This document shows positions 6,259-17,233 of a stretch of DNA of 36,001 nucleotides, one piece after another. Within the stretch, counting starts at the first letter, position 1, and every line of letters begins with the position of its first letter. The notes beneath the pieces are model-generated. The model saw only the letters and a program-made list of their open reading frames with translations, was not told the origin of the DNA and made no database searches. The stretch covers positions 1 through 36,001 of the forward strand of contig NZ_LIQX01000086.1 in assembly GCF_001418475.1 (NCBI RefSeq). The letters run 5' to 3'. The position numbers were made by a program, and so were the translations under genes. Origin of the DNA: Streptomyces ossamyceticus. GTDB taxonomy: Bacteria > Actinomycetota > Actinomycetes > Streptomycetales > Streptomycetaceae.

Positions 6259-7455
6259 GTGCCGGCCATCAGTGGATCCGGCCCGGGAGAAGCCGGCGCA
6301 CCGTCCATGTCCGCCCGGAGCCGGGGCGGCCCTGCGGTGACCACTCCTTCCGGCGGACGATTCCCGCGCCCGCAGAGTGAGGCCTCGCCGCAACCTCCGT
6401 CGCATGCGCTTCTCGCCTCGGTCGCCGCTGAATTCCGGGCCGACGCTCACGACCAGCCCGGGGTCCTCGCAGCGCTGAGCGGCCCTGGACTCGACTGGTC
6501 CGGAGCCGCGGGCGTGGCCGATCTCGCGAATGGTCGGCCGCTCCGGCCCACGGCGGCCGTAAGAGTAGCCTCGATCACGAAGACCTTCACCGCTGCGGCG
6601 GTCCTGCGGCTGGTCGAGTCGAAGCGGCTGGGCCTGGACGACCCGATCGTCCCGCTGACGTCCGGGGCAATCCTCGACGCTCTCGGCGAGGGTGGCTATC
6701 GGATCGAGGAGATGACGGTTCGTCATCTCCTCCAACACACCGCCGGGCTCTACGACTTCGGCGCCGATCCCGACTACGACCGCGAGGCCTTCGCCCGCCC
6801 GACACATCGCTGGACCCGCCTGGAACAGATCAGCTGGGCGATGCTCCACGGCAAGCCGGTGGCCCCTCCGGGTACGCAGTACCACTACAGCGACACGGGA
6901 TACAGCATCCTCGGCAACATCCTGGAACGTGTGACCGGCGATTCGCTCGGCACCGCCTACCGCACGTTGCTCGACTTCGAACGGCTCGGTCTGGAGTCGG
7001 TGCACCTGGAATCCCTGGAGCCCACGCCGCCCGCCGCAGCCGAAAGAGCGCACCAGTACGTGTGGAACGCCGATCTGCTCGCGGTCGATCCGTCCTGCGA
7101 TCTGTGGGGCGCCGGCGGGCTGGTCTCCACCATGCGCGACCTGGCGTGCTTCGTCCGCGCCCTGTTCGGCGGAAAGGTCTTCCAGTACCCCGAGACTCTG
7201 GCCGCCATGCTCCGGACCGTGCAGGCCCGAGGCGCGGAGGCCGGCGGCATGGGGATCTTCAGGATGCCTCTCGGGCCGGGTGTCTGGTGGGGTCACGCCG
7301 GATTCTGGGGCGTGGTGATGGCGTACAACCCCGAGTACGACCTGGCGGTGGCCACCACCGTCACCCGGCGCCCGGAAGAACATCCCGAGGAGCAGTACGA
7401 ACTCGGGCGGCGACTGGTGAGCGCGGTCTGTGACCGGGCTCGATCGGCCGAATGA
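6259..7455 (+). CDS. serine hydrolase, class C beta-lactamase/esterase fold
   Basis: Up to 398 aa. Catalytic Ser-x-x-Lys is SITK (Ser105, Lys108 counting from GTG 6259), the second motif is Y210-S-D with the typical continuation TGYSILGN, and the third is H346-A-G in WWGHAGFWG. These three are the signature of the beta-lactamase-related esterase/DD-peptidase/D-aminopeptidase superfamily. No signal peptide is seen, so it is probably cytoplasmic. The start is uncertain: GTG 6259, ATG 6307 and GTG 6339 are possible, and the first 50 residues are Pro/Ser/Gly-rich. It lies 108 bp upstream of kamA in the same direction and could belong to the cluster as a tailoring, deprotecting or self-resistance amidase. 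Its membership is inferred from position only. Confidence 0.82.
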   Translation: MPAISGSGPGEAGAPSMSARSRGGPAVTTPSGGRFPRPQSEASPQPPSHALLASVAAEFRADAHDQPGVLAALSGPGLDWSGAAGVADLANGRPLRPTAAVRVASITKTFTAAAVLRLVESKRLGLDDPIVPLTSGAILDALGEGGYRIEEMTVRHLLQHTAGLYDFGADPDYDREAFARPTHRWTRLEQISWAMLHGKPVAPPGTQYHYSDTGYSILGNILERVTGDSLGTAYRTLLDFERLGLESVHLESLEPTPPAAAERAHQYVWNADLLAVDPSCDLWGAGGLVSTMRDLACFVRALFGGKVFQYPETLAAMLRTVQARGAEAGGMGIFRMPLGPGVWWGHAGFWGVVMAYNPEYDLAVATTVTRRPEEHPEEQYELGRRLVSAVCDRARSAE

Positions 7456-7563
7456 ATTCCCCGAGCCCTTCGTTTCCGGAGGAATGAATTACCCGCTCCC
7501 GTCACCGAGCGGACAACGAACAAACGGAATACCTCACCGACGAACCCCGACAGGCGGTATTCG

Positions 7564-8640
7564 ATGCCACGCCGCTCCCGTGCGATTCGCACGCCGGAAT
7601 CGCTTTACGAACAGAACCTCATCACCGAGGAGAAACTTCCCGAAATCCGTAGCGTCGCCAAGCGTTATGCGGTGAGCATCACCCCGGCCATACGGGAACG
7701 GATGGAAACGCCTGACGATCCGGTCGCACGACAGTTCGTCCCCACCGCGGACGAACTCGTCACCCTGCCCGAGGAACGCGCCGATCCGATCGGCGACGCC
7801 CCGTTCACCCCGGTGAAGGGCATCACCCATCGCTACCCGGACCGGCTGCTGCTCAAGCCGATGCACCTGTGCCCCGTCTACTGCCGGTTCTGCTTCCGCC
7901 GCGAGGTGGTGGGTCCTGGCGAGGGCATGTTGTCCGCCGACGAGATGGCACGGGCGTTGGAATACATCCGCTCGCAACCGGACGTGTGGGAGGTCATTCT
8001 CACCGGAGGCGACCCTCTGATGATCTCGCCCGCCAGGCTGGAGCCGATCATGACGGCGCTCGACGCGATCGAGCACGTCAAGGTCATCCGGTTCCACACC
8101 CGCATACCGGTGGTCGACCCCGACCGGGTGACCGACGCTCTGATCGAGGCGCTGGGCACCGAGACGCCCGTATGGGTGGTGGTCCACACCAACCATGTCC
8201 AGGAGCTGGGGGATGCCGCCCGCGCCGCACTCCGACGGCTCAGCTCGGCAGGTATACCGCTGCTGAGCCAGACCGTGCTGCTCAAGGGTGTCAACGACAC
8301 TCCGACGGCACTGGAAGACCTGTTCCGGACGCTCGTCGCCAATCGAGTCAAACCGTACTACCTGCACCATGGCGACCTGGCCCCGGGCACCCACCACTTC
8401 AGGACGAGCATCCAGCACGGACAGGAGCTGATGGGGCGGCTGCGCGGGCGACTGTCCGGCACGTGCCAGCCCACCTATGTCCTGGACATACCGGGTGGGC
8501 ACGGAAAGGTTCCCGTCGGGCCGTCGTACCTGGAAGACCATGGAAATCACACGTACCGGGTGCGTGATCCGTGGGGCTGCCACCACGACTATCCGCCTGG
8601 ACCGGTACCCGACGCCGAACCCGCGCAGTTCACGCTATAG
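7564..8640 (+). CDS. kamA: lysine 2,3-aminomutase (radical SAM, PLP), KamA family
   Basis: 358 aa. Radical-SAM cluster motif C103-x3-C107-x2-C110 (CPVYCRFCFRR), GGDPL of the SAM-binding region (148-152), and PLP lysine K315 in DIPGGHGK. Two Asp residues that bind the substrate side-chain amine in clostridial lysine 2,3-aminomutase (Asp293, Asp330, seven residues before the PLP Lys) are conserved in spacing here as D271 (HHGDLAPG) and D308 (VLDIPGG). Glutamate mutases have Lys/Asn there. The enzyme should therefore convert a basic amino acid, most likely L-lysine, to its beta-isomer. The N-terminus is shorter than in the clostridial enzyme. ATG 7564 is preceded by a modest GACAGGCGG site. First clear biosynthetic gene of the operon-like array running to 15439. 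Confidence 0.9.
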   Translation: MPRRSRAIRTPESLYEQNLITEEKLPEIRSVAKRYAVSITPAIRERMETPDDPVARQFVPTADELVTLPEERADPIGDAPFTPVKGITHRYPDRLLLKPMHLCPVYCRFCFRREVVGPGEGMLSADEMARALEYIRSQPDVWEVILTGGDPLMISPARLEPIMTALDAIEHVKVIRFHTRIPVVDPDRVTDALIEALGTETPVWVVVHTNHVQELGDAARAALRRLSSAGIPLLSQTVLLKGVNDTPTALEDLFRTLVANRVKPYYLHHGDLAPGTHHFRTSIQHGQELMGRLRGRLSGTCQPTYVLDIPGGHGKVPVGPSYLEDHGNHTYRVRDPWGCHHDYPPGPVPDAEPAQFTL

Positions 8641-8736
8641 CGAGACGCAGTCTTTTCAGGATCTCATCGAGAAGGCACCTCGGTCTGCCAAATGACGACA
8701 CCTGACGGCAGATCCCCGAACGAAGAGGCGGACATC

Positions 8737-9468
8737 ATGACTGAACTGACAGAGATTTGGGACCTCTCCGACACGGAGGTGTTCACCAGATACGGCGATG
8801 TCTTCGTCCCTCGCCGTCACGAGCAGATGACAGCCGTGTGCGACCTCCTCTCCGGTATCCCCATCCCTCATGTGCTCGACCTCTGCTGCGGAGAGGGACG
8901 GCTCTCCGAGGAGTACCTCCGCCGCAACCCCGAGGGCCGGGTCACTCTGCTCGACGGCTCGCGGGAGATGCTGGACCGGGCCGTGGAGCGCCTGGCGCCC
9001 TTCGGCGGCCGGCATGCCGTGCGGGAGGCGGACATTGAGGACCACGCCTGGCGGCAGGGCGCCACGTACGGCGCGGTGGTCACATCTCTGGCGGTCCACC
9101 ACCTCGACGGCGCGGGCAAGCGCACGCTGTACAAGGACATCCACGCGATGCTCGCCCCGGGCGGTGCGTTCGTGATGGCCGACCTGGTCGAACCCACCGG
9201 CGCGGCCGCCCGCGCACTGGCGGGCGACCACTGGGAGCAGGCCGTGCGGGAGGGCTCCCTGGAGCAGTTCGGCGGGGACGAGGCGGCGATCGCGTTCGAG
9301 AAGTCGGAGTGGAACTACTACCGGCTCCCCGGACCGGACCCGCTCGACAAACCGTCCTCGGTCGCCGAGCACCTGGACTGGCTGCGCGAGGCGGGCTTCG
9401 TGGAGGTGGACGTGGTGTGGATGTACGCGGGACACACCGTGTTCACGGCACGACGGAAGGCGAACTGA
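8737..9468 (+). CDS. SAM-dependent methyltransferase (class I)
   Basis: 243 aa from ATG 8737, chosen because GAAGAGG lies about seven bases upstream; an in-frame ATG at 8692 (258 aa) has its only purine-rich site too far away. Class I fold: motif I VLDLCCGEG (46-54), acidic strand-2 end RVTLLDGSREML, then GAVVTSLAVHHLD (motif II region) and LAPGGAFVMADLVEP (motif III). It resembles small-molecule methyltransferases of natural-product clusters. It ends one base before the ATP-grasp start, so the two are co-translated. In the proposed pathway it would N-methylate the hydrazine nitrogen of hydrazinoacetate, or another amine; that role is inferred from the structure of negamycin. Confidence 0.85.
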   Translation: MTELTEIWDLSDTEVFTRYGDVFVPRRHEQMTAVCDLLSGIPIPHVLDLCCGEGRLSEEYLRRNPEGRVTLLDGSREMLDRAVERLAPFGGRHAVREADIEDHAWRQGATYGAVVTSLAVHHLDGAGKRTLYKDIHAMLAPGGAFVMADLVEPTGAAARALAGDHWEQAVREGSLEQFGGDEAAIAFEKSEWNYYRLPGPDPLDKPSSVAEHLDWLREAGFVEVDVVWMYAGHTVFTARRKAN

Positions 9469-9469
9469 C

Positions 9470-10720
9470 ATGGCCGAGCGGCCCAGCCGGACGATCCTGG
9501 CCAACATCGTCAGCGACATCATGGCCGAGCACCCCACGGACGCCTACCGGCGGGCCATGGCAGCGGTGACCCCCCGAAAGCTGTGGCAGGCCGAGCCGGG
9601 CGACTGCGTGGTCATGCTCGCCCCGTGCACCCCCGCGTTCCGGGAGTACGTGGAGAGCGTCACCGGACTGGACACCTCGCAGGTCGACATCGTGGCCCCA
9701 GAGGAGGTGCGTGGCGTCCACGCCCTGGATGTAGTACGCGACCTCGGGGCGGAGCACCTCCTCGCCTCCCGCCCGGAGCTGCAGCCCTTCGTCCCGGACC
9801 GCCCGGTCCTGGAGTTCGGCCGGCGGACGGGTGTCCGGGTGCTGCCGTACACGAAGCTCCCCGGCGGCGGCATGCTCGACGCACTCCGACTGATCAACAC
9901 CAAGCGCGGATTCCGTGAGACCGCCGCCGGCCTCGGACTGCCCGTGGCCGAGGGGGGCTATGCCGAGTCACAGGCCGAACTGGTCTCGTCCATCAAGGAA
10001 TTCCTGACCACCCGGCCCGCCGCGATCATCAAGAACAACCGGTCGTCCAACGGGTTCGGCAACGTGGTGATCCGGTCCGGCGGGCCGAAGACGCCGGAGG
10101 AGCAACTCGCCGAAGCCCTCACAGGACAGGCGGAACGCGACGGCGGCTGGGTGTACGAGGAGTTTCTGCCTTTCACCGCGACTCCCAGTATCGAGATGAA
10201 CATCGACGACGCCGGGCCGACGTACTTCTACAGCTGCGACCAGCGAACTGTGAACAACGCGTGGACGGGGATGGTGACTCCGGCAGAGGAAGGCCCCTTC
10301 CACAAGGAGCTGATGCGGGCCGCGGAGGCCATCGGCGGCTGGCTGCACAGCCATGGTTACCGTGGGATCTTCGACGTGGACTGCGGTGTCCACGAGGGTG
10401 GCTACGTCGTCACCGAGGCCAACGTCCGACGCACAGGCGGCACCTATTTGGAGGAGCTCGCCCGGCGGATGCGGCCGGGGGACTCCCCGGTGCACTGGCG
10501 CGCGGACGTCCGGCTGAGCACGGGGAGTCTGGACTTCGCGAGCGCGGTGGCTCGGCTCGCCTCCGCCGGGCTCGCCGACTCGTCCTCGGCCGCACGCGTG
10601 CTGCTGACCGCCGACACGCGGGCCGTGGACGGCAAGTGGCGCTATCTGGTGGTCGGCCGCGATGCGCAATCCGTGGCGGAGGTGGAGAGGCAAGCGGAAA
10701 TCATCCTGGGAATCGGCTGA
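9470..10720 (+). CDS. ATP-grasp amide ligase, PGM1-related
   Basis: 416-aa ATP-grasp enzyme. An N-terminal pre-ATP-grasp domain (about 1-140, with CVVMLAPCTPAFREYV) is followed by the nucleotide-binding domain: K188 in AIIKNNRSSNGFGNVV (flexible Gly-rich loop), ExF hinge VYEEFLPF (229-236), and metal-binding FDVDCGVHEGGYVVTEANVR with Asp302/304, Glu316 and Asn318, then RTGGTYLEEL. The arrangement with RRTGGT and a C-terminal cap resembles PGM1, the pheganomycin peptide ligase. It would activate a carboxylate as acyl-phosphate and couple it to an amine or hydrazine. The proposed reaction is beta-lysine plus (methyl)hydrazinoacetate to a hydrazide. Starts one base after the methyltransferase stop. 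Confidence 0.85.
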   Translation: MAERPSRTILANIVSDIMAEHPTDAYRRAMAAVTPRKLWQAEPGDCVVMLAPCTPAFREYVESVTGLDTSQVDIVAPEEVRGVHALDVVRDLGAEHLLASRPELQPFVPDRPVLEFGRRTGVRVLPYTKLPGGGMLDALRLINTKRGFRETAAGLGLPVAEGGYAESQAELVSSIKEFLTTRPAAIIKNNRSSNGFGNVVIRSGGPKTPEEQLAEALTGQAERDGGWVYEEFLPFTATPSIEMNIDDAGPTYFYSCDQRTVNNAWTGMVTPAEEGPFHKELMRAAEAIGGWLHSHGYRGIFDVDCGVHEGGYVVTEANVRRTGGTYLEELARRMRPGDSPVHWRADVRLSTGSLDFASAVARLASAGLADSSSAARVLLTADTRAVDGKWRYLVVGRDAQSVAEVERQAEIILGIG

Positions 10721-11035
10721 CGCCGCCACGGTCCGTGTGCGATCTGCGGCAGTAACGGTCTCCGCTCCACGGGACCGCTCGATCAAGATCATTCCGTGCG
10801 GGATGGGCCGGAGTGGCGTCCAGGCGGGCGGAGTCGGTCTCGGCAACTGGCGCTCCGGCACCGCCCCCGCCGTTCATGTGCCCGCCGGCGACACGGCCCG
10901 GCGGATCTCCCGATCTCCGGCAGCCTCCTCGCGACGACGCCCGTGGCGGGTCATGGCAGGGGCAACCACTACGACTGCTGACCACACCTAGAAGCGTCCG
11001 CACCGAGCCCGAGGGAAATCTCCGGAAAGGCCCCG
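10721..11035. other. 315-bp non-coding gap inside the cluster
   Basis: No frame here has convincing coding character. A weak 5-bp hairpin (CGGTC 10756-10760 / GACCG 10773-10777) is the only local structure noticed. The right end carries the ribosome site GGAAAGG (11024-11030) for the MetRS-like gene. A promoter for the hydrazine module may lie here, but I find no convincing -35/-10 pair. Confidence 0.5.
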
Positions 11036-12679
11036 ATGAGTTCCGAATCCTGGCTGATCACCGCAACCCCACCCACGCCCAACGGCGACCTGCATCTGGG
11101 CCACTTGTCCGGGCCGTACCTCGCGGCCGATGTGATGGCCAGGCAGTTGCGCGCCGAAGGCGCCGATGTTCTGACGATGACCGGGATCGACGACAACCAG
11201 AGTTACACCGAGGCCCTCGCGGTCCGCGAGGGCGGCACCGCCGCCACCACCGCGAGATGGTTCGGCGACCGCATCGTCCGCGCCTGGGAGCGCGCGGGCC
11301 TGCGGTACGACGTCATCGGTCGGCCGGACCGCGACCCGCCGCACCGCGAGTTCACCACGCGGATGTTCCGACAGCTGTACGACCAGGGCGACATCGTGGC
11401 CCGGGTCCGGCCGCTGCCGTACTGCAAGCCATGTGAGCGCTGGGCGTTCGAGGCGTACGTCGCCGGTGCTTGTCCGCACTGCAAGGCACGGTCCTGCGGC
11501 AATGCCTGCGAGATGTGTGGCCGACCCAACGACTGCGCGGACCTGGTCGACCCCGTCTGCACGATCTGTGGCGCCGACTGCGAACTCAGGGACTGCGAAC
11601 GGTTGTACCTACCCCTGGAGCGGCACGCGGAAGCGCTGCGCGAGTTCTGGGACGCGACGGGGATGAACGGTCACCTCACGGCCCTGTGCCACACCATGGC
11701 CCTGGAGGGACTCCCCGAGATAGCCGTGTCTCATCCCGCGACCTGGGGCCTGCCGGTGCCGGTCGACGGGTTTGACGACCACCGGGTGTACGTGTGGTTC
11801 GAGATGGCGGCAGGCTACCTGGCGGCCGGAGCGGACGGTGAGCCGAGGGGCGTCTGGGGCGGGCGCCGACGGGTGGTGCAGTGTTTCGGGTACGACAACG
11901 GGTACTTCCACGCGCTGCTCTTCCCGGCCGTCATGCGTGCCTTCGACCCCGACGTGCAGCTCCCCACGGACTTCGTCTCCAATGAGTTCTACCGGCTCGA
12001 CGGTCTCAAGTTCTCCACCAGCCGCAAGCACGCCGTCTGGCTGCTCGACATGTTGTCCAGCGTGCCCGCCGACCACCTCCGGCTCCAGCTGAGCTGGGAC
12101 CGTCCCGCCGTCGAGGAGACGGACTTCACCTGGGAGAGCTTCCGGACGCGCGTGTACGACGGAGCACTCACGCGGTGGCACGGCTGGCTGGCCGCCCTGA
12201 CCCGGCGCTGCGAAGCCGCGGACGCCTGCCAGCTGCCCCCCGGTTCTTCGGCCCCTCCCGGCCCGACCACCACCGCCGAACGGCTGCGGAAGCATACCGA
12301 CGACACGCTGCGAGCTGTCGCGCACGCGTACCGGCCGGAGTCGTTCGCGCCGGACGACGCGCTCGACCGGCTCGACCGGTTGGCGCGTGACGCCGCCGCC
12401 GCAGGGGCGGATCTGGAGCGGCTGGCTGGTCTACCGGGGGGCCCGCACGCGGCATTCGTCGAAGGAGTGCGTGCCGAGCTGGCCGCCGCGGCAGCCTTCG
12501 CTGCCGGCCTGTACCCGGTGGCTCCCACCATGGCCCAGCAGTTGTGGACCGCCCTCGGATGCCCGGGATCGGTCGAGAAGAACGGCCTGGCGTGGAGGCA
12601 CCACGACCGGACCGGAACCAAGGTCGGCGACCTCGCCGACGCCTGCTCGCTCTTCCTGCCCCACGGCCGGACGCGGTGA
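11036..12679 (+). CDS. MetRS-like hydrazine synthetase component
   Basis: 547-aa class I aminoacyl-tRNA-synthetase-like protein. HIGH signature as HLGH (residues 20-23), KMSKS equivalent as KFSTSR (325-330), and a zinc-knuckle insertion with four CxxC pairs (C130/133, C146/149, C158/161, C175/178) as in two-zinc methionyl-tRNA synthetases. WGLPVP and VYVWFE match the MetRS core. The C-terminal region (about 390-547) is an Ala-rich helical tail rather than a clear anticodon-binding domain. In known hydrazine synthetases a MetRS-like domain uses ATP to esterify an amino acid onto the N-OH of N6-hydroxylysine, and a cupin then rearranges this to an N-N bond. The next genes encode that hydroxylase and cupin, so this role is favoured over translation. 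Overlaps nothing; GGAAAGG precedes the ATG. Confidence 0.87.
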   Translation: MSSESWLITATPPTPNGDLHLGHLSGPYLAADVMARQLRAEGADVLTMTGIDDNQSYTEALAVREGGTAATTARWFGDRIVRAWERAGLRYDVIGRPDRDPPHREFTTRMFRQLYDQGDIVARVRPLPYCKPCERWAFEAYVAGACPHCKARSCGNACEMCGRPNDCADLVDPVCTICGADCELRDCERLYLPLERHAEALREFWDATGMNGHLTALCHTMALEGLPEIAVSHPATWGLPVPVDGFDDHRVYVWFEMAAGYLAAGADGEPRGVWGGRRRVVQCFGYDNGYFHALLFPAVMRAFDPDVQLPTDFVSNEFYRLDGLKFSTSRKHAVWLLDMLSSVPADHLRLQLSWDRPAVEETDFTWESFRTRVYDGALTRWHGWLAALTRRCEAADACQLPPGSSAPPGPTTTAERLRKHTDDTLRAVAHAYRPESFAPDDALDRLDRLARDAAAAGADLERLAGLPGGPHAAFVEGVRAELAAAAAFAAGLYPVAPTMAQQLWTALGCPGSVEKNGLAWRHHDRTGTKVGDLADACSLFLPHGRTR

Positions 12680-12705
12680 AACCGAACTCAGCGAAAGAAG
12701 AGGCC

Positions 12706-14028
12706 ATGGAACGGTTCGATTTCATCGGGGTCGGAGCCGGCCCCTCCAACCTGAGTCTCGCGGCACTCGCACAGCCGGTCACGGACCTCAGCGCGGTCTT
12801 CCTGGATGCCAAACCGCGTTTCCAGTGGCATCCGGGGATCATGCTGCCCGGCGCCGAGCTCCAAGTGTCCTTCATGAAGGACCTCGTCACGCTGGTCGAC
12901 CCGACGAGTCGGTACTCGTTCCTCAACTTCCTCGTCGAGCAGGGACGGGTGTACCGCTCGTTGGTCGCCAACGGCACATCCGTGTCCCGGCGGGAGTTCG
13001 AGCAGTACTACCACTGGGTCGCTGAGCAGTTGCCCTCCGTCCGCTGGAGGCGACGCGTGAGGTCGGTGGAGCTGGGAGAAGGCGCTCTCGAGGTGCGGTC
13101 CGACGACGGCGAGAGCCTGAAGACCCGGGCCCTGGTCCTCGGCACGGGCAAGGAGCCGGTCGTGCCGCACTTCGTGGCGTCCCTGCGTGGCCCTCGGCTC
13201 CTGCACAGCAGCGAACTGCTGACCGTCCGTCCGAACGTCGCGGGACAGCGGGTGATGGTGGTGGGCGCCGGACAGAGCGGTGCCGAGGTCGTCAACCACC
13301 TGCTGTCGGAAGACCGGCAACTGCCGTCGGAACTGGTCTGGGTATCGAGCCGGGAGGGCTTCCAGCCGATCGACGACTCGCCGTTCACCAATGAGTGGTT
13401 CACGCCCCCGTATGTGGACCACTTCCACGGCCTGCCCGAGGAACGGCGCCAGACCCTGCTGCCCCGGCAGCGCCTCGCCAGCGACGGCGTCTCCGAGTCC
13501 CTGCTACGGAACATCTACCGGAAGCTGTACCTGCTGGACACGGTCGGCGACGGCCGCCTGCGCCACCATCTGGTGCCCTGCCGCCGTGTGATCGACGTGC
13601 GCCGACTGGCGGGGGCCCTGGTCGTCACCCTGCACGACGAGGATCGAGGCGCCACTCAGCGCTGTGTGGTGGACACAGTGATCTTCTGCACCGGTTACCG
13701 CAGCGTTCTCCCTGACTTCCTGGAGCCGCTGCGCGACCGTCTGACGGACACGGACGGCAGGCTACAGGTGGGTGAGGACTACTCGCTGAACTGGGACGGA
13801 CCGGCCGGACTGCGCATCTACGTGCAGAACTTCGCCGAGAACTCCCATGGCATCGCCGATCCGAACCTCAGCCTCGCGGCCTGGCGCAGTGCGCGGGTGC
13901 TCAACTCCATCGCGGCGCGTGAGATCTACCGCGTCGACCAGGCCCGGGCCACGACCGACTGGGCCTGGGAGCCCACCTCCCCGACTCCCGACCCGACCCC
14001 CATGGCGACTCTTGTGGAGCAGCGATGA
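12706..14028 (+). CDS. L-lysine/L-ornithine N-hydroxylase (SidA/IucD/PvdA family)
   Basis: 440-aa class B flavin monooxygenase. FAD motif GVGAGPSN (8-15), NADPH motif VVGAGQSGAEV (185-195), the family segment QVSFMKDLVTLVDPTSRYSF with its Lys and Pro-Thr, and C-terminal ENSHGIADPNLSLAAWRSA. Hydroxylates the terminal amine of lysine or ornithine with NADPH and O2. Neighbouring hydrazine-forming genes favour L-lysine to N6-hydroxylysine rather than a siderophore role. ATG 12706 has AAGAAGAGG immediately upstream; an in-frame GTG at 12676 overlapping the previous stop is an alternative. Its last four bases overlap the cupin start (ATGA). Confidence 0.9.
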   Translation: MERFDFIGVGAGPSNLSLAALAQPVTDLSAVFLDAKPRFQWHPGIMLPGAELQVSFMKDLVTLVDPTSRYSFLNFLVEQGRVYRSLVANGTSVSRREFEQYYHWVAEQLPSVRWRRRVRSVELGEGALEVRSDDGESLKTRALVLGTGKEPVVPHFVASLRGPRLLHSSELLTVRPNVAGQRVMVVGAGQSGAEVVNHLLSEDRQLPSELVWVSSREGFQPIDDSPFTNEWFTPPYVDHFHGLPEERRQTLLPRQRLASDGVSESLLRNIYRKLYLLDTVGDGRLRHHLVPCRRVIDVRRLAGALVVTLHDEDRGATQRCVVDTVIFCTGYRSVLPDFLEPLRDRLTDTDGRLQVGEDYSLNWDGPAGLRIYVQNFAENSHGIADPNLSLAAWRSARVLNSIAAREIYRVDQARATTDWAWEPTSPTPDPTPMATLVEQR

Positions 14029-14372
14029 GCAGAACGATCAGGGTTGCGTACAGCAAGCCCTTGCGGGCGCCCTCCGGACTGGCGGTGGAGGAGGTGCCCG
14101 CGACTCCCGGCACCAGGGCGGCCGGCTGGCCGTTCCGGACCGCGCGTTTCACCGTGCCGGCCGGAGTCACCGGTGAGCCGGATCAGCACGAGGTGGCCGA
14201 GCTGTGGATGGTGCGGGCCGGTGAAGGAGTCGTTCGGTCGGGCGACGACATCGTCGAACTCCGGGTCGGGGACTCCGTGTTCTTCCCGCCGTGGACTCCG
14301 CATCAGGCGACAGCGGGCCCTCACGGACCGCTCGAGGTGTTCAGTCTCTGGTGGCGGCAGGAGGAGCGATGA
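14025..14372 (+). CDS. single-domain cupin, hydrazine synthetase component
   Basis: 115-aa cupin. Metal-ligand residues visible: H55 and E59 in QHEVAELWMVRAGEG (first cupin motif, with only one of the two usual His) and H93 in PPWTPHQATAGP (second motif). In s56-p1-type machinery a zinc cupin domain, usually fused to the MetRS-like domain, catalyses the rearrangement of the O-aminoacyl hydroxylysine ester to an N-N bonded product. Here the two functions are in separate polypeptides. ATG overlaps the N-hydroxylase stop, and its own TGA overlaps the next ATG, so the three genes are tightly coupled. Confidence 0.87.
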   Translation: MSRTIRVAYSKPLRAPSGLAVEEVPATPGTRAAGWPFRTARFTVPAGVTGEPDQHEVAELWMVRAGEGVVRSGDDIVELRVGDSVFFPPWTPHQATAGPHGPLEVFSLWWRQEER

Positions 14373-15439
14373 GCGCGGACCTGGCCGTCGTCGGGGGCGG
14401 AATCGTCGGTTCCTTCGTCGCGCACCGGGCAGCGGCGCTGCGCCCTCACTGGCGCACCGTCGTCCTGGAGCGTGACGTTCCGGCACGAGGAGCCACCGCG
14501 TGGTCGGCCGGTGCGGACTTTCCCCTGGCCGCCACAGCGGAGCACAGATCCCTCGTGGAGGAGAGCCGCCGCCTGTACGACGAGTTGCAGGACACTCCCC
14601 CCGGGCTGTTCGTACGTCCGGTCCGGATGGTGTATGTGGTCGCGAGTTCCCGACTCCACGACCTGCGTGCGCGTACCGTCGCGGATCTGACCCCCACCGG
14701 AGCACAAGAGGCGGATCGGATTCGCCGCATGCTGCCCGGCCTGCGGTTCAAGACCGACGAATGCGCGGTGACTCATCGGGGTCGAGGGGCGGTGGTGGCC
14801 GCCCGCGGACTGACCGAGGCCCTGTTGACAGGTGGCGTCCGCAAGGGGTGCACTGCCCTGCAGATCGGGCAGCGTGTCGAGTCGGTGGAGCGGGTCGCGA
14901 ACGGCTATCGACTGACCGCGGGCGCGAACCAGTGGCAGGCCCGCCGTGTGGTGATCGCGGTCGGACCGTGGGAGTTGCCCCGGCCACTCGCCCCCGGCCT
15001 CGAAGCCGCGGTGCCCGAGGCTCGCCGCAAGCGAGTGGCGGCGCTGCACGCGCAGCTGCCGGTTCGGGCCGACGACCCTCTGGTGTACTTCGTCGACGAC
15101 GACCTGTTCGTGCTGCCGCTCTGCGAAGGGCAGGCGTTGGTGAGTTTCCGCCGGAACGTCTGGGACGAAGATCCGGACACACTGGACGGACAGGCGGATG
15201 CCGCCGATCTCGAGGAGGGAGTTCGGGCGCTCGCCGCGCGCAGCAGCCGAGCGGCGGCTGCCGTCGTCGGTGGACGGGCCTTCCAGGACCTGTATACGCC
15301 TGGACGGCTGCCACTGGTCCACACAGTGCCGGACATGCCGGGATTGTCTGCCGTCGTTGGCGGTTCCGGCTCCGGGGTCCGCCTGGCGCCCGCCCTGGCG
15401 GCTCGGGCACTGGACAGCGTGCTGGACTCTGCCGCCTGA
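14369..15439 (+). CDS. FAD-dependent amino-acid oxidase (DAO/glycine-oxidase family)
   Basis: 356-aa flavoprotein: N-terminal dinucleotide motif VVGGGIVGS (7-15), EARRKRVAALHAQLPV and LVYFVDDDLFVLPL in the substrate domain, and the C-terminal FAD signature LSAVVGGSGSGVRLAPALA. In the s56-p1 pathway a DAO-type enzyme cleaves the N6-(carboxymethylamino)lysine adduct oxidatively, releasing hydrazinoacetic acid and a lysine semialdehyde. That is the proposed reaction here. The start overlaps the cupin stop (ATGA). Last gene of the operon; a strong hairpin pair follows. Confidence 0.87.
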   Translation: MSADLAVVGGGIVGSFVAHRAAALRPHWRTVVLERDVPARGATAWSAGADFPLAATAEHRSLVEESRRLYDELQDTPPGLFVRPVRMVYVVASSRLHDLRARTVADLTPTGAQEADRIRRMLPGLRFKTDECAVTHRGRGAVVAARGLTEALLTGGVRKGCTALQIGQRVESVERVANGYRLTAGANQWQARRVVIAVGPWELPRPLAPGLEAAVPEARRKRVAALHAQLPVRADDPLVYFVDDDLFVLPLCEGQALVSFRRNVWDEDPDTLDGQADAADLEEGVRALAARSSRAAAAVVGGRAFQDLYTPGRLPLVHTVPDMPGLSAVVGGSGSGVRLAPALAARALDSVLDSAA

Positions 15440-15456
15440 CCGGCCGTGCACAAGCG

Positions 15457-15525
15457 TCGGCGGGGTTGCGCGGACCGCCGGCGCCTGGAGCCCAGCCGGG
15501 CGCCGGTGGCCCGGAGCCCCGCCGA
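15457..15525 (+). terminator. nested GC-rich hairpins closing the biosynthetic operon
   Basis: Outer perfect stem TCGGCGGGG (15457-15465) / CCCCGCCGA (15517-15525). Inner perfect stem CCGGCGCC (15478-15485) / GGCGCCGG (15499-15506), with an additional CTGG/CCAG pairing inside. It begins 17 bases after the DAO stop. Streptomyces terminators often lack a U tract, so this is a good candidate for the operon end. Confidence 0.65.
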
Positions 15526-15556
15526 TAATCACTCGCGGCACGGCCCAAGATCACCT

Positions 15557-15562
15557 TAGGTT
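15557..15562 (+). promoter_or_regulatory. -10-like TAGGTT, possible leaderless start of the GNAT gene
   Basis: TAGGTT ends six bases before the ATG at 15569, and no purine-rich ribosome site is present. This spacing predicts a transcript starting at or next to the ATG (leaderless), as is common in Streptomyces. No convincing -35 was identified. Confidence 0.35.
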
Positions 15563-15568
15563 GGCCCG

Positions 15569-16102
15569 ATGTCCGAACTGCGAACCGACCGACTCCTGTT
15601 GCGCGCGTGGCGGGAGTCCGATCTCGCCCCCTGGGCGGCCATGAACGCCGATCCCGAGGTACGCGCGTACTTTCCGGAGCTGCTCACGACCGAGCAGAGC
15701 GACGCGTCCGTCGCCCGGTTCCAGGCCGATCTCGACCGGCGGGGCTGGGGATGGTGGGCCGTTGAGGTGCGGGCCACCGGGGAGTTCATCGGGTTCTGCG
15801 GGCTGGATCCGGTGGAGGACGACATGCCGTTCACCGGTGTGGAGGCGGGCTGGCGCCTCACGCGCACGGCGTGGGGGCACGGCTATGCCACGGAAGCGGC
15901 CCGTGCCGTTCTGGACTTCGGCTTCCGGCGTCTCGCCCTCGACGAGATCCTCGCGGTGACAGTGGCCACCAACCTCCGCTCGCAGGCGGTGATGCGCCGC
16001 ATCGGCATGACCCATGACCCGGCCGACGACTTCGACGACCCGAGCGTGCCGGACGGCCCGCTGCGCCACGGTGTGGTCTACCGGATCGGGCGGACAGCGT
16101 GA
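15569..16102 (+). CDS. GNAT acetyltransferase, RimJ/RimL-like
   Basis: 177 aa. Starts MSELRTDRLLLRAWRESDLAPW, the RimJ/RimL N-terminal pattern; the acetyl-CoA-binding region is LTRTAWGHGYATEAARAVLDF (motif A, equivalent to Q/RxxGxG/A), followed by ATNLRSQAVMRRIGM (motif B). Acetylates an amine of a protein or small molecule; target unknown. It lies behind the operon terminator with its own leaderless-type promoter, so it is not part of the same transcript. A beta-lysine antibiotic could be inactivated by such an enzyme, as streptothricin acetyltransferases do, so self-resistance is possible; ordinary housekeeping is equally compatible. Confidence 0.85.
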   Translation: MSELRTDRLLLRAWRESDLAPWAAMNADPEVRAYFPELLTTEQSDASVARFQADLDRRGWGWWAVEVRATGEFIGFCGLDPVEDDMPFTGVEAGWRLTRTAWGHGYATEAARAVLDFGFRRLALDEILAVTVATNLRSQAVMRRIGMTHDPADDFDDPSVPDGPLRHGVVYRIGRTA

Positions 16103-16120
16103 CCGTCGGGCAGCCGACGG
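16103..16120. terminator. hairpin between convergent GNAT and mraY genes
   Basis: CCGTCGG (16103-16109), loop GCAG, CCGACGG (16114-16120): a perfect 7-bp stem directly after the GNAT stop in a convergent gap. An 11-base direct repeat CGATCAGCCGG follows at 16139-16149 and 16163-16173. Confidence 0.5.
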
Positions 16121-16165
16121 GACTTCGCCACCCTCCGCCGATCAGCCGGTAGACCGGTCAGTCGA

Positions 16166-17233
16166 TCAGCCGGCCGCCCAGCCCGTGTAGAAGAGGCCGA
16201 GGCCGACGATCACGCAGATGCCCTGGATGGTCCAGAAGCGCACGACGACCAGGACCTCGGACCAGCCCTTGAGTTCGAAGTGGTGTTGCAGCGGCGCCAT
16301 CCGGAAGACCCGTCGGCCGGTCAGCTTGAACGAACCGACCTGGATGATCACGGACAGGGTGATCAGGACGAAGAGTCCGCCGAGCACCACGAGCAGCAGC
16401 TCGGTGCGGGAGCAGATGGCGAGGCCCGCGAGCGCGCCGCCGAGGGCGAGCGACCCGGTGTCGCCCATGAAGATCTTGGCCGGTGAGGTGTTCCACCACA
16501 GGAACCCGAAGCAGGCGCCCATCAGCGCCGCGGCGACGACGGCCAGGTCGAGCGGATCGCGGACCTCTATGCAGGAGGCGGGGTCCGTGAGTTCCATGGC
16601 GTTGGCGCAGGAGTTCTGGAACTGCCACAGGCCGATGAAGGTGTAGCCGCCGAAGACCATGACGGACGCGCCGGTCGCCAGTCCGTCCAGTCCGTCGGTG
16701 AGGTTCACGCCGTTCGACATGGCGAGGATCATGAACAGTGCCCAGACGACGAACAGGACCGGCCCGATGGTCCAGCCGAAGTCCGTGACGAAGGACAGCT
16801 TGAGCGAGGCGGGCGTCTGGCCCCGCTCGTCCGCGAACCGGATGGCCAGCACGGCGAAGACGATGCCGACGATCAGCTGGCCGGCCATCTTCGCCCCGGC
16901 CCGCAGCCCCAGCGAACGCCGCTTGACGATCTTGATGTAGTCGTCGAGGAAGCCGACGACGCCCATGCCCGCCATCAGGAACAGCACCAGGACACCGGGG
17001 TAGGTGGGGCTCTCTCCGGTGAGGATCTTGGTCAGGGCGTAGGCGACCATGGTGGCCAGGATGAAGGCGATGCCGCCCATGGTGGGGGTGCCGCGCTTGC
17101 TGGCGTGCTCGCGGGGGCCGTCGTCGCGGATGTACTGGCCGTATCCCTTGCGGGCCAGCAGCTTGATCAGCAGGGGTGTGCCGATGAGCGTCAGGAACAG
17201 GCCTATGGCCCCGGCATACAGGATCTGGTTCAT
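16166..17233 (-). CDS. mraY: phospho-N-acetylmuramoyl-pentapeptide transferase (MraY)
   Basis: 355-aa polytopic enzyme with about ten membrane segments. It transfers phospho-MurNAc-pentapeptide from UDP to undecaprenyl phosphate, giving lipid I. All hallmark loops are present: RDDGPREHASKRGTPTMGG, the Asp pair in GFLDDYIKI, NGVNLTDGLDGLATG, FMGDTGSLALGG, and PLQHHFELKGW with the conserved His residues. Length is normal and all motifs are intact, so it should be active. No mur, fts or other dcw genes flank it, so it is probably a second, stand-alone copy. A paralogue could provide tolerance to MraY-directed nucleoside antibiotics or a developmental isoform; both are inference. Confidence 0.95.
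   Translation of the reverse strand: MNQILYAGAIGLFLTLIGTPLLIKLLARKGYGQYIRDDGPREHASKRGTPTMGGIAFILATMVAYALTKILTGESPTYPGVLVLFLMAGMGVVGFLDDYIKIVKRRSLGLRAGAKMAGQLIVGIVFAVLAIRFADERGQTPASLKLSFVTDFGWTIGPVLFVVWALFMILAMSNGVNLTDGLDGLATGASVMVFGGYTFIGLWQFQNSCANAMELTDPASCIEVRDPLDLAVVAAALMGACFGFLWWNTSPAKIFMGDTGSLALGGALAGLAICSRTELLLVVLGGLFVLITLSVIIQVGSFKLTGRRVFRMAPLQHHFELKGWSEVLVVVRFWTIQGICVIVGLGLFYTGWAAG

Follow-up and report, generated by a model that had tools for sequence, protein, structure and literature searches.

Could a gene set in Streptomyces ossamyceticus make a negamycin-like hydrazide whose N-N bond comes from a hydrazine synthetase and not from the haem enzyme of the negamycin pathway? The window, by which we mean the whole stretch of DNA analysed, is one entire contig (C854) of 36,001 bases. 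An earlier note had drawn attention to seven genes on one strand between positions 7564 and 15439, and every gene that it named was recovered at its place and on that strand, with matches to its family that are far stronger than chance would give. These genes, the spacer among them and a serine hydrolase gene ahead of them all lie on the forward (+) strand.

Assembly core shared with the negamycin producer

The set begins with the gene for a lysine 2,3-aminomutase (KAM; 7564-8640), the product of which matches TIGR03822 with 492 bits; it passes the AblA_like_2 cut-off (492.2 versus 396.25 bits) and fails the NCBI equivalog cut-off for AblA (TIGR03820; 326.6 versus 525.4 bits). KAM could be aligned with a lysine 2,3-aminomutase of known structure (PDB identifier 2A5H) with 260 bits, R134, D293, D330 and K337 of the latter being conserved as R112, D271, D308 and K315, and its radical-SAM CxxxCxxC motif is intact (C103-x3-C107-x2-C110). 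By reference to 2A5H, we take K315 to be the PLP lysine, and D271 and D308 to be the Asp pair that binds the side-chain amine of lysine. The gene for a SAM methyltransferase (MT; 8692-9468; Methyltransf_25) follows after 51 bases. Next to it lies the gene for a PGM1-like ATP-grasp ligase (9470-10720), which has a PreAtp-grasp match and a marginal match to PGM1_C (23.1 bits at a cut-off of 22.5), and for which the nearest solved structures are those of an 'ATP-grasp peptide ligase' (PDB identifier 8YND) and PGM1 (PDB identifier 3WVQ).

Comparison with the enzymes of the negamycin producer, which had been suggested at the outset, favoured the reading of the earlier note. KAM, MT and the ligase are 74%, 75% and 76% identical, respectively, to the products of neighbouring genes, arranged in the same order, in the neg cluster of Kitasatospora purpeofusca NRRL B-1817 (locus L002; the ligase match is protein P0004). 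PMC12154649 names this strain as the negamycin producer, in which a KinJ homolog is colocalised with N-methylation, lysine-hydroxylation and beta-lysine genes. The same paper describes the conversion of glycine to hydrazinoacetic acid by NegJ, with which the haem-enzyme route to the N-N bond given in the earlier note agrees.

Upstream of KAM is a gene for a serine hydrolase of the beta-lactamase/D-aminopeptidase type (6259-7455; Pfam Beta-lactamase, 194 bits). Counterparts with 62-68% identity immediately precede KAM in three loci of the negamycin type, L002 (62%), L051 and, split into two pieces, L001; no match was found in the other 14 loci of the comparison. The gene probably belongs to the cluster, where its product may act in peptide or prodrug processing.

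Putative N-N cassette

A spacer of 315 bases (10721-11035) separates the assembly genes from the gene for a MetRS-like enzyme (11036-12679; tRNA-synt_1g, 243 bits). The latter has the motifs HLGH and KFSTS and four CxxC motifs, as do its counterparts in the other three cassette loci (L003, L004 and L054); we take HLGH and KFSTS to be the equivalents of HIGH and KMSKS. Among the best 120 of 1334 matches, it is 80% identical to a protein from S. paradoxus and 64% identical to one from Sinosporangium. The four CxxC motifs fit the duplicated Zn-ribbons described for paralogous MetRS (PMC2922099). Linked to the MetRS-like and cupin genes is that of a flavin-dependent, putative L-lysine N6-hydroxylase (12676-14028; Lys_Orn_oxgnase, 359 bits), with identities of 62%, 58% and 47% to the N-hydroxylases of L003, L004 and L054, respectively. 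Its start likely lies near 12676-12708 rather than at 12544.

The best PDB match of the cupin (14025-14372) is RHS1 (PDB identifier 5UQP), a characterised N-N cupin, whose zinc ligands D63, H65, E69 and H103 are conserved as D53, H55, E59 and H93. These positions are conserved in all four cassette loci, with Glu in place of the first Asp in L054, where the cupin fell below query detection (E-values of 1e-4 and 1e-3) and was identified from its open frame and verified by motif. The synthetase genes are adjoined, as in Spb39-type pathways, by the gene for a DAO-family FAD oxidoreductase (14369-15439; PF01266, 96 bits), which is Spb39-like by family and 59%, 50% and 37% identical to the DAO at the same cassette position in L003, L004 and L054. 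Its start is probably at 14369 rather than 14291, with an ATGA overlap with the cupin stop. The MetRS-like enzyme and the cupin thus bear features diagnostic of the N-N-forming family, and not of non-hydrazine families, which agrees with the part in a hydrazine synthetase given to them by the earlier note.

The chemistry of this cassette family has been described (PMC8664883; PMC11705231). Judged by family, the window resembles Spb38/39/40 of the s56-p1 pathway and its kin (triacsin, azaserine and N-nitroglycine) in having a lysine N-hydroxylase, a MetRS-like enzyme, a zinc cupin and a DAO. However, the MetRS-like and cupin parts form a single protein in the s56-p1, triacsin and pyrazomycin systems (PMC8664883) and two proteins in the window, and the partners in the azaserine and N-nitroglycine clusters are NRPS genes, whereas those in the window form a negamycin-type assembly core. 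The RHS1 system of Rhodococcus jostii RHA1, which has a stand-alone MetRS-like partner, shares with the window a stand-alone cupin and the same four zinc ligands, but uses glutamate and a saccharopine dehydrogenase (PMC8664883) where the window has a DAO.

A scan of 7300-16300 gave no promoter-like site and two terminator-like sites against 2.1 expected, none of them within the 315-base spacer. When the spacer was searched with the cluster proteins, including the alpha/beta-hydrolase, all matches (E < 1e-5) fell in the terminal parts of the flanking ligase and MetRS-like genes, and a remnant of a hydroxylase or alpha/beta-hydrolase gene in the spacer was rejected. Downstream of the cassette is a gene for MraY (16166-17233), which is not counted in the proposed pathway.

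NegJ-type and hydroxylase proteins

In addition to the shared core, the neg cluster has NegJ, a JmjC-like hydroxylase gene between KAM and MT, a FemAB-like transferase and an alpha/beta-hydrolase, none of which has a match in the window, where the MetRS/N-hydroxylase/cupin/DAO cassette is found in place of NegJ and the hydroxylase. The NegJ/KinJ-family protein of L002 has no sequence match in the PDB, and neither it nor the L002 hydroxylase matches a Pfam or NCBIfam family. Membership of the NegJ-type class is assigned by residue spacing: residues R497, M498, N501, H504, H541, R551 and R570 of KinJ recur at exact spacing in the L002 protein and in all nine NegJ-type loci. C468 and K356 of KinJ are absent at exact spacing from the four proteins checked and therefore lend no support to this assignment; a cysteine is present within a six-residue segment some 30 residues ahead of the anchor in four of the nine NegJ-type proteins. 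The hydroxylase of L002 may be described as JmjC-like by its HxE...H motif and a low-confidence model (pLDDT 57), which in the PDB is matched best by JmjC-type 2-oxoglutarate hydroxylases, with top-ranked TM-scores of only ~0.3. L055, the downstream flank of L002, has no match to the cluster proteins searched.

Queries of the NegJ type found no match in any of the four cassette genomes, including the window's own (98.35% complete), versus matches in all nine NegJ-type genomes. Likewise, the hydroxylase query matched none of the four genomes with a hydroxylase-free locus, the window's included, versus nine of nine genomes with the gene in the locus. The window has no hydroxylase gene between KAM and MT, which are 51 bases apart, and no homolog was found genome-wide. 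The lack of matches to NegJ and to the negamycin-type hydroxylase fits a deoxy product formed by another N-N route.

Distribution of the two N-N sources

The search yielded 42 loci, of which 12 were compared and 11 (all of these but L012, of 5.9 kb) entered the final table. The distant ATP-grasps L013-L042, with identities of at most 28%, lie outside the comparison, and L043-L050 and L056-L058 cover short parts of regions that other loci contain in full; the protein searches scored the ~8000 candidates sharing most words. Among the 18 loci compared, which are phylogenetically non-independent, each of the 13 with MT has exactly one N-N source (NegJ-type in nine, MetRS/cupin-type in four), and the five without MT have neither. 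The cassette-type loci are those of the window, Sinosporangium album, a Paraburkholderia MAG and Parafrankia irregularis, all with the order KAM-(hydroxylase)-MT-ligase ... MetRS-N-hydroxylase-cupin-DAO. Between the ligase and MetRS-like genes, both L003 and L004 have other genes, including one for an alpha/beta-hydrolase, and L054 has an additional open frame. The hydroxylase gene is missing from three of the four cassette loci and present in eight of the nine NegJ loci; it occurs together with the cassette in Parafrankia irregularis.

A tree of the shared core was built from 10 loci, without L011 (a long branch, kept in a separate analysis), L059, L060 and the loci lacking MT. On this tree, monophyly of the four cassette loci was rejected (p-AU 2.2e-5), and thus the N-N source seems to have been switched at least twice on the shared core. 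The single-gene trees are weakly supported, with L054 as a long branch.

Proposed pathway and alternatives

Because the assembly core is kept, neither NegJ nor the hydroxylase has a match in the genome and a hydrazine-synthetase cassette is found instead, we consider it likely that this is a negamycin-type cluster that makes deoxynegamycin or 3-epi-deoxynegamycin. The deoxynegamycin-like assignment and the second route to the N-N bond put forward in the earlier note are thus well supported by the core similarity, the MetRS/cupin features and the lack of NegJ and hydroxylase matches, the product being a prediction. As read from the genes, KAM would convert L-lysine to beta-lysine, and the N-hydroxylase would supply N6-hydroxylysine. 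The MetRS-like enzyme would form one half of the hydrazine synthetase, activating glycine with ATP and esterifying it to N6-hydroxylysine; glycine is suggested because the cassette has a DAO, as in Spb39-type pathways, and not the saccharopine dehydrogenase of Pyr-type ones. The zinc cupin, as the N-N bond-forming half, would rearrange the ester to a hydrazine, from which the DAO would release hydrazinoacetic acid by cleavage. MT would then methylate the inner nitrogen of the hydrazine, and the ligase would join beta-lysine to the terminal nitrogen of methylhydrazinoacetate, giving the hydrazide beta-lysyl-(1-methylhydrazino)acetate. On stereochemical grounds, L-beta-lysine (3S) would yield the 3-epi form.

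If the MetRS-like enzyme used alanine, serine or glutamate, the same pathway would yield a hydrazide of beta-lysine with another hydrazino acid. Relatives of the cassette do differ in their amino acid, which may be Glu, Ser, Ala or Tyr (PMC8664883; PMC11705231), and RHS1, the best match of the cupin, serves a glutamate system. However, MT and the ligase share 75-76% identity with their counterparts in the negamycin producer, which uses NegJ to turn glycine into hydrazinoacetic acid, and the cassette is completed by a DAO and not by a saccharopine dehydrogenase, and we regard another amino acid as unlikely. It is very unlikely that two unrelated pathways merely adjoin here, with KAM and the ligase making a beta-lysine dipeptide and the cassette a separate hydrazinoacetic acid product. 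The 315-base gap between the gene groups speaks for such a division, as does the occurrence of KAM and the ligase with neither MT nor an N-N source in L005-L007, L010 and L053. Yet both groups are found together, in the same order, in four lineages that are distant from one another: the family of the window, Streptosporangiaceae, Burkholderiaceae and Parafrankia. In all of these, MT is present and no NegJ match was found in the genome.

The closeness of the core to that of the negamycin producer would also suit negamycin itself as the product, with the 5-hydroxyl coming from an unlinked and unrelated hydroxylase; but this appears highly improbable, given that no homolog of the JmjC-like hydroxylase was found in the window's genome and that the presence of its gene follows the N-N source in most loci (eight of nine NegJ loci, one of four cassette loci). 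Production of deoxynegamycin or 3-epi-deoxynegamycin through the cassette remains our preferred reading, against which the gap and the glutamate use of the RHS1 system also count.

Implications

3-Epi-deoxynegamycin presumably has the same planar structure as the product predicted here. PMC10296333 cites it as a natural product that is active in stop-codon readthrough but not as an antimicrobial, and its leucyl adduct as another natural product. The window cluster is therefore a candidate for its biosynthesis, and S. paradoxus, Sinosporangium album and Parafrankia irregularis are places to look for further relatives. We are inclined to view the NegJ haem enzyme and the MetRS/cupin synthetase as exchangeable modules on one hydrazide-assembly core, switched at least twice, such that clusters of the window's type would make deoxynegamycins and Parafrankia irregularis would make negamycin without a haem N-N enzyme. 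Possible interchangeability of the two N-N systems was suggested earlier, from the mirror-image case, in a preprint (PMC12154649). If the present reading is true, this family would be a clear example of one antibiotic scaffold that is fed by two N-N bond routes of unrelated chemistry, and would put the interchangeability proposed there to a direct genetic test.

Gene layout and the hydrazine-forming cassette

Profile searches bore out the gene families named in the earlier note: seven collinear genes on the + strand (7564-15439) match them, in two tight groups separated by 315 bases. The first comprises the lysine 2,3-aminomutase (KAM), methyltransferase (MT) and PGM1-like ATP-grasp ligase, with intergenic gaps of 51 and 1 bases; in the second, the cassette of MetRS-like protein, lysine N-hydroxylase, cupin and FAD oxidoreductase (DAO), stops and starts overlap, provided that the N-hydroxylase begins at 12676. 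For the N-hydroxylase and DAO, the longest frames probably place the start too far upstream; 12676-12708 and 14369 are likelier. A serine hydrolase gene (6259-7455) adjoins the cluster on the upstream side and probably belongs to it, since counterparts with 62-68% identity occupy the same place in three negamycin-type loci, L001 (in two pieces), L002 (Kitasatospora purpeofusca NRRL B-1817) and L051.

The cassette looks intact at the level of sequence. The closest solved structure to the cupin is RHS1 (PDB identifier 5UQP), a zinc cupin with demonstrated N-N bond formation that requires all four of its zinc ligands, D63, H65, E69 and H103 (PMC8664883); all four are kept in the window, as D53, H55, E59 and H93. 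The MetRS-like protein retains HIGH-like and KMSKS-like motifs and four CxxC motifs, which fits the description of a MetRS paralog bearing duplicated Zn-ribbons (PMC2922099). Spb38, Spb40 and Spb39 act in that sequence to yield hydrazinoacetic acid (PMC11705231), and glutamate-type systems have a saccharopine dehydrogenase in place of the Spb39-type step (PMC8664883). The presence of a DAO in the window, rather than that dehydrogenase, points by analogy to glycine as the likely substrate and hydrazinoacetic acid as the intermediate.

Immediately downstream of the DAO gene lies a GNAT acetyltransferase (15569-16102, + strand) with a weak likeness, far under the cut-offs, to bleomycin-type N-acetyltransferases; it is a possible self-protection gene. 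Next to it, on the opposite strand, the cell-wall enzyme MraY is encoded a second time (16166-17233), 86% identical to another full-length copy (G000:C494:4474-5535). A cluster accompanied by an additional copy of an antibiotic's target may confer self-resistance in this way, but the target of negamycin is the ribosome.

The assembly core compared with a negamycin producer

On sequence similarity, the assembly core of the window (KAM, MT and ligase) is that of negamycin. Among about 8000 candidates scored, the closest named relatives of the ligase are from Streptomyces paradoxus (83%) and K. purpeofusca (76%). A scan of species genomes with the ligase gave 42 loci, including L002, with which the window shares gene order and identities of 74% (KAM), 75% (MT) and 76% (ligase). 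K. purpeofusca makes negamycin, and in its genome a KinJ homolog lies together with genes for N-methylation, lysine hydroxylation and beta-lysine (PMC12154649); the same source cites Wang, Wei and Ryan 2025 for the conversion of glycine to hydrazinoacetic acid by NegJ. L002 encodes one protein of ~600 aa, lacking any Pfam match, with the KinJ residues R497, M498, N501, H504, H541, R551 and R570 spaced as published, K356 and C468 being absent at the exact spacing. Between KAM and MT in L002 sits a protein with an HxE...H motif, whose low-confidence model (pLDDT 57) best resembles JmjC-type 2-oxoglutarate hydroxylases, and we infer that it is a lysine-type hydroxylase.

L001, L002 and L051 also carry a FemAB-like transferase, of a fold used for tRNA-dependent aminoacyl transfer; it is a candidate enzyme for leucyl-negamycin formation and has no match in the window.

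One N-N source or the other

In a comparison of 18 loci, MT is present in 13, nine of which have a NegJ-type protein and four the cassette; none of the 13 matches both N-N sources and none matches neither. The five MT-less loci, which include a 7.7 kb contig, show no match to either source. The chance of so perfect a split is 1 in 8568 (1 in 2380 excluding the 7.7 kb contig), with the caveat that related loci are not independent. In whole-genome searches, NegJ-type queries matched all nine NegJ-type genomes and none of the four cassette genomes, the window's own among them. The JmjC-like hydroxylase was likewise matched in 9/9 genomes with the gene in their locus and in 0/4 with a hydroxylase-less locus (those of the window, L003, L004 and the NegJ-type genome G828).

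The cassette loci are the window, L003 (Sinosporangium album), L004 (a Paraburkholderia MAG) and L054, in which the ligase and the MetRS-like protein are identical, beyond residue 1, to the Parafrankia irregularis entries. L054 has the hydroxylase too, and so carries KAM, hydroxylase, MT and ligase alongside the cassette route; in its cupin, Glu replaces the first zinc-ligand Asp. The G+C content of L004 varies from 0.47 to 0.65 along the stretch, which may reflect recent horizontal transfer, with mis-binning as an alternative.

Evolutionary history and related loci

A phylogeny built on concatenated KAM, MT and ligase for 10 loci unites the window with L003, L004 and the three negamycin loci of Kitasatospora type (support 100/99). 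A topology that constrains the four cassette loci to a single clade is rejected (p-AU 2.2e-5); on this tree, the N-N source changes at least two times; a single clade of the three hydroxylase-less loci gives a less clear-cut result (p-AU 0.033). Given the weak support of the single-gene trees and the long branch of L054, the claim is confined to more than one switch of the N-N source, irrespective of direction.

The ligase family is rare, occurring in 7/394 genomes of the window's family and 2/394 of its class (its own counted in both), in 1/35 of the family of G447 (G447 itself) and in 3/354 of the family of the L008 genome (that genome counted). A NegJ-type cluster beyond Actinomycetota is seen in Dictyobacter arantiisoli (Chloroflexota; L011, 7064-13171), where KAM, ligase, methyltransferase and hydroxylase are ordered differently. 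In L005, L006, L007 and L053, KAM and ligase are accompanied by an EamA transporter and a long DAO-fusion protein, and in L005-L007 by a C26 peptidase as well; locus searches matched neither the methyltransferase nor any of the two N-N sources there. These loci probably represent another beta-lysyl product family. The G828 locus (L060) has MT and a NegJ-type protein 59% identical to that of L001. Its ligase is divergent (36%), its KAM-like protein reaches only 30% identity, and locus and genome searches found no hydroxylase; the product of this locus is possibly a different hydrazide.

Predicted product

The likely product of the window, as judged from its genes, is beta-lysyl-(1-methylhydrazino)acetic acid (C9H20N4O3; computed [M+H]+ 233.1608). 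By our stereochemical reasoning, the 3R form of this compound is deoxynegamycin and the 3S form 3-epi-deoxynegamycin; the genes are compatible with both configurations at C3. In the parts of the literature searched, no producer genome or biosynthesis was found for the latter. A hybrid of the negamycin-type core and the cassette is unreported in the titles and opening abstracts listed by full-text searches on hydrazine synthetases and negamycin, and unmentioned in the available portions of PMC12154649, PMC11705231, PMC13274452 and PMC12797225; priority is uncertain, the 2025 NegJ paper lying outside this comparison. What appears to be new is the combination of modules already known singly, and convergence on one antibiotic scaffold is strongly predicted.
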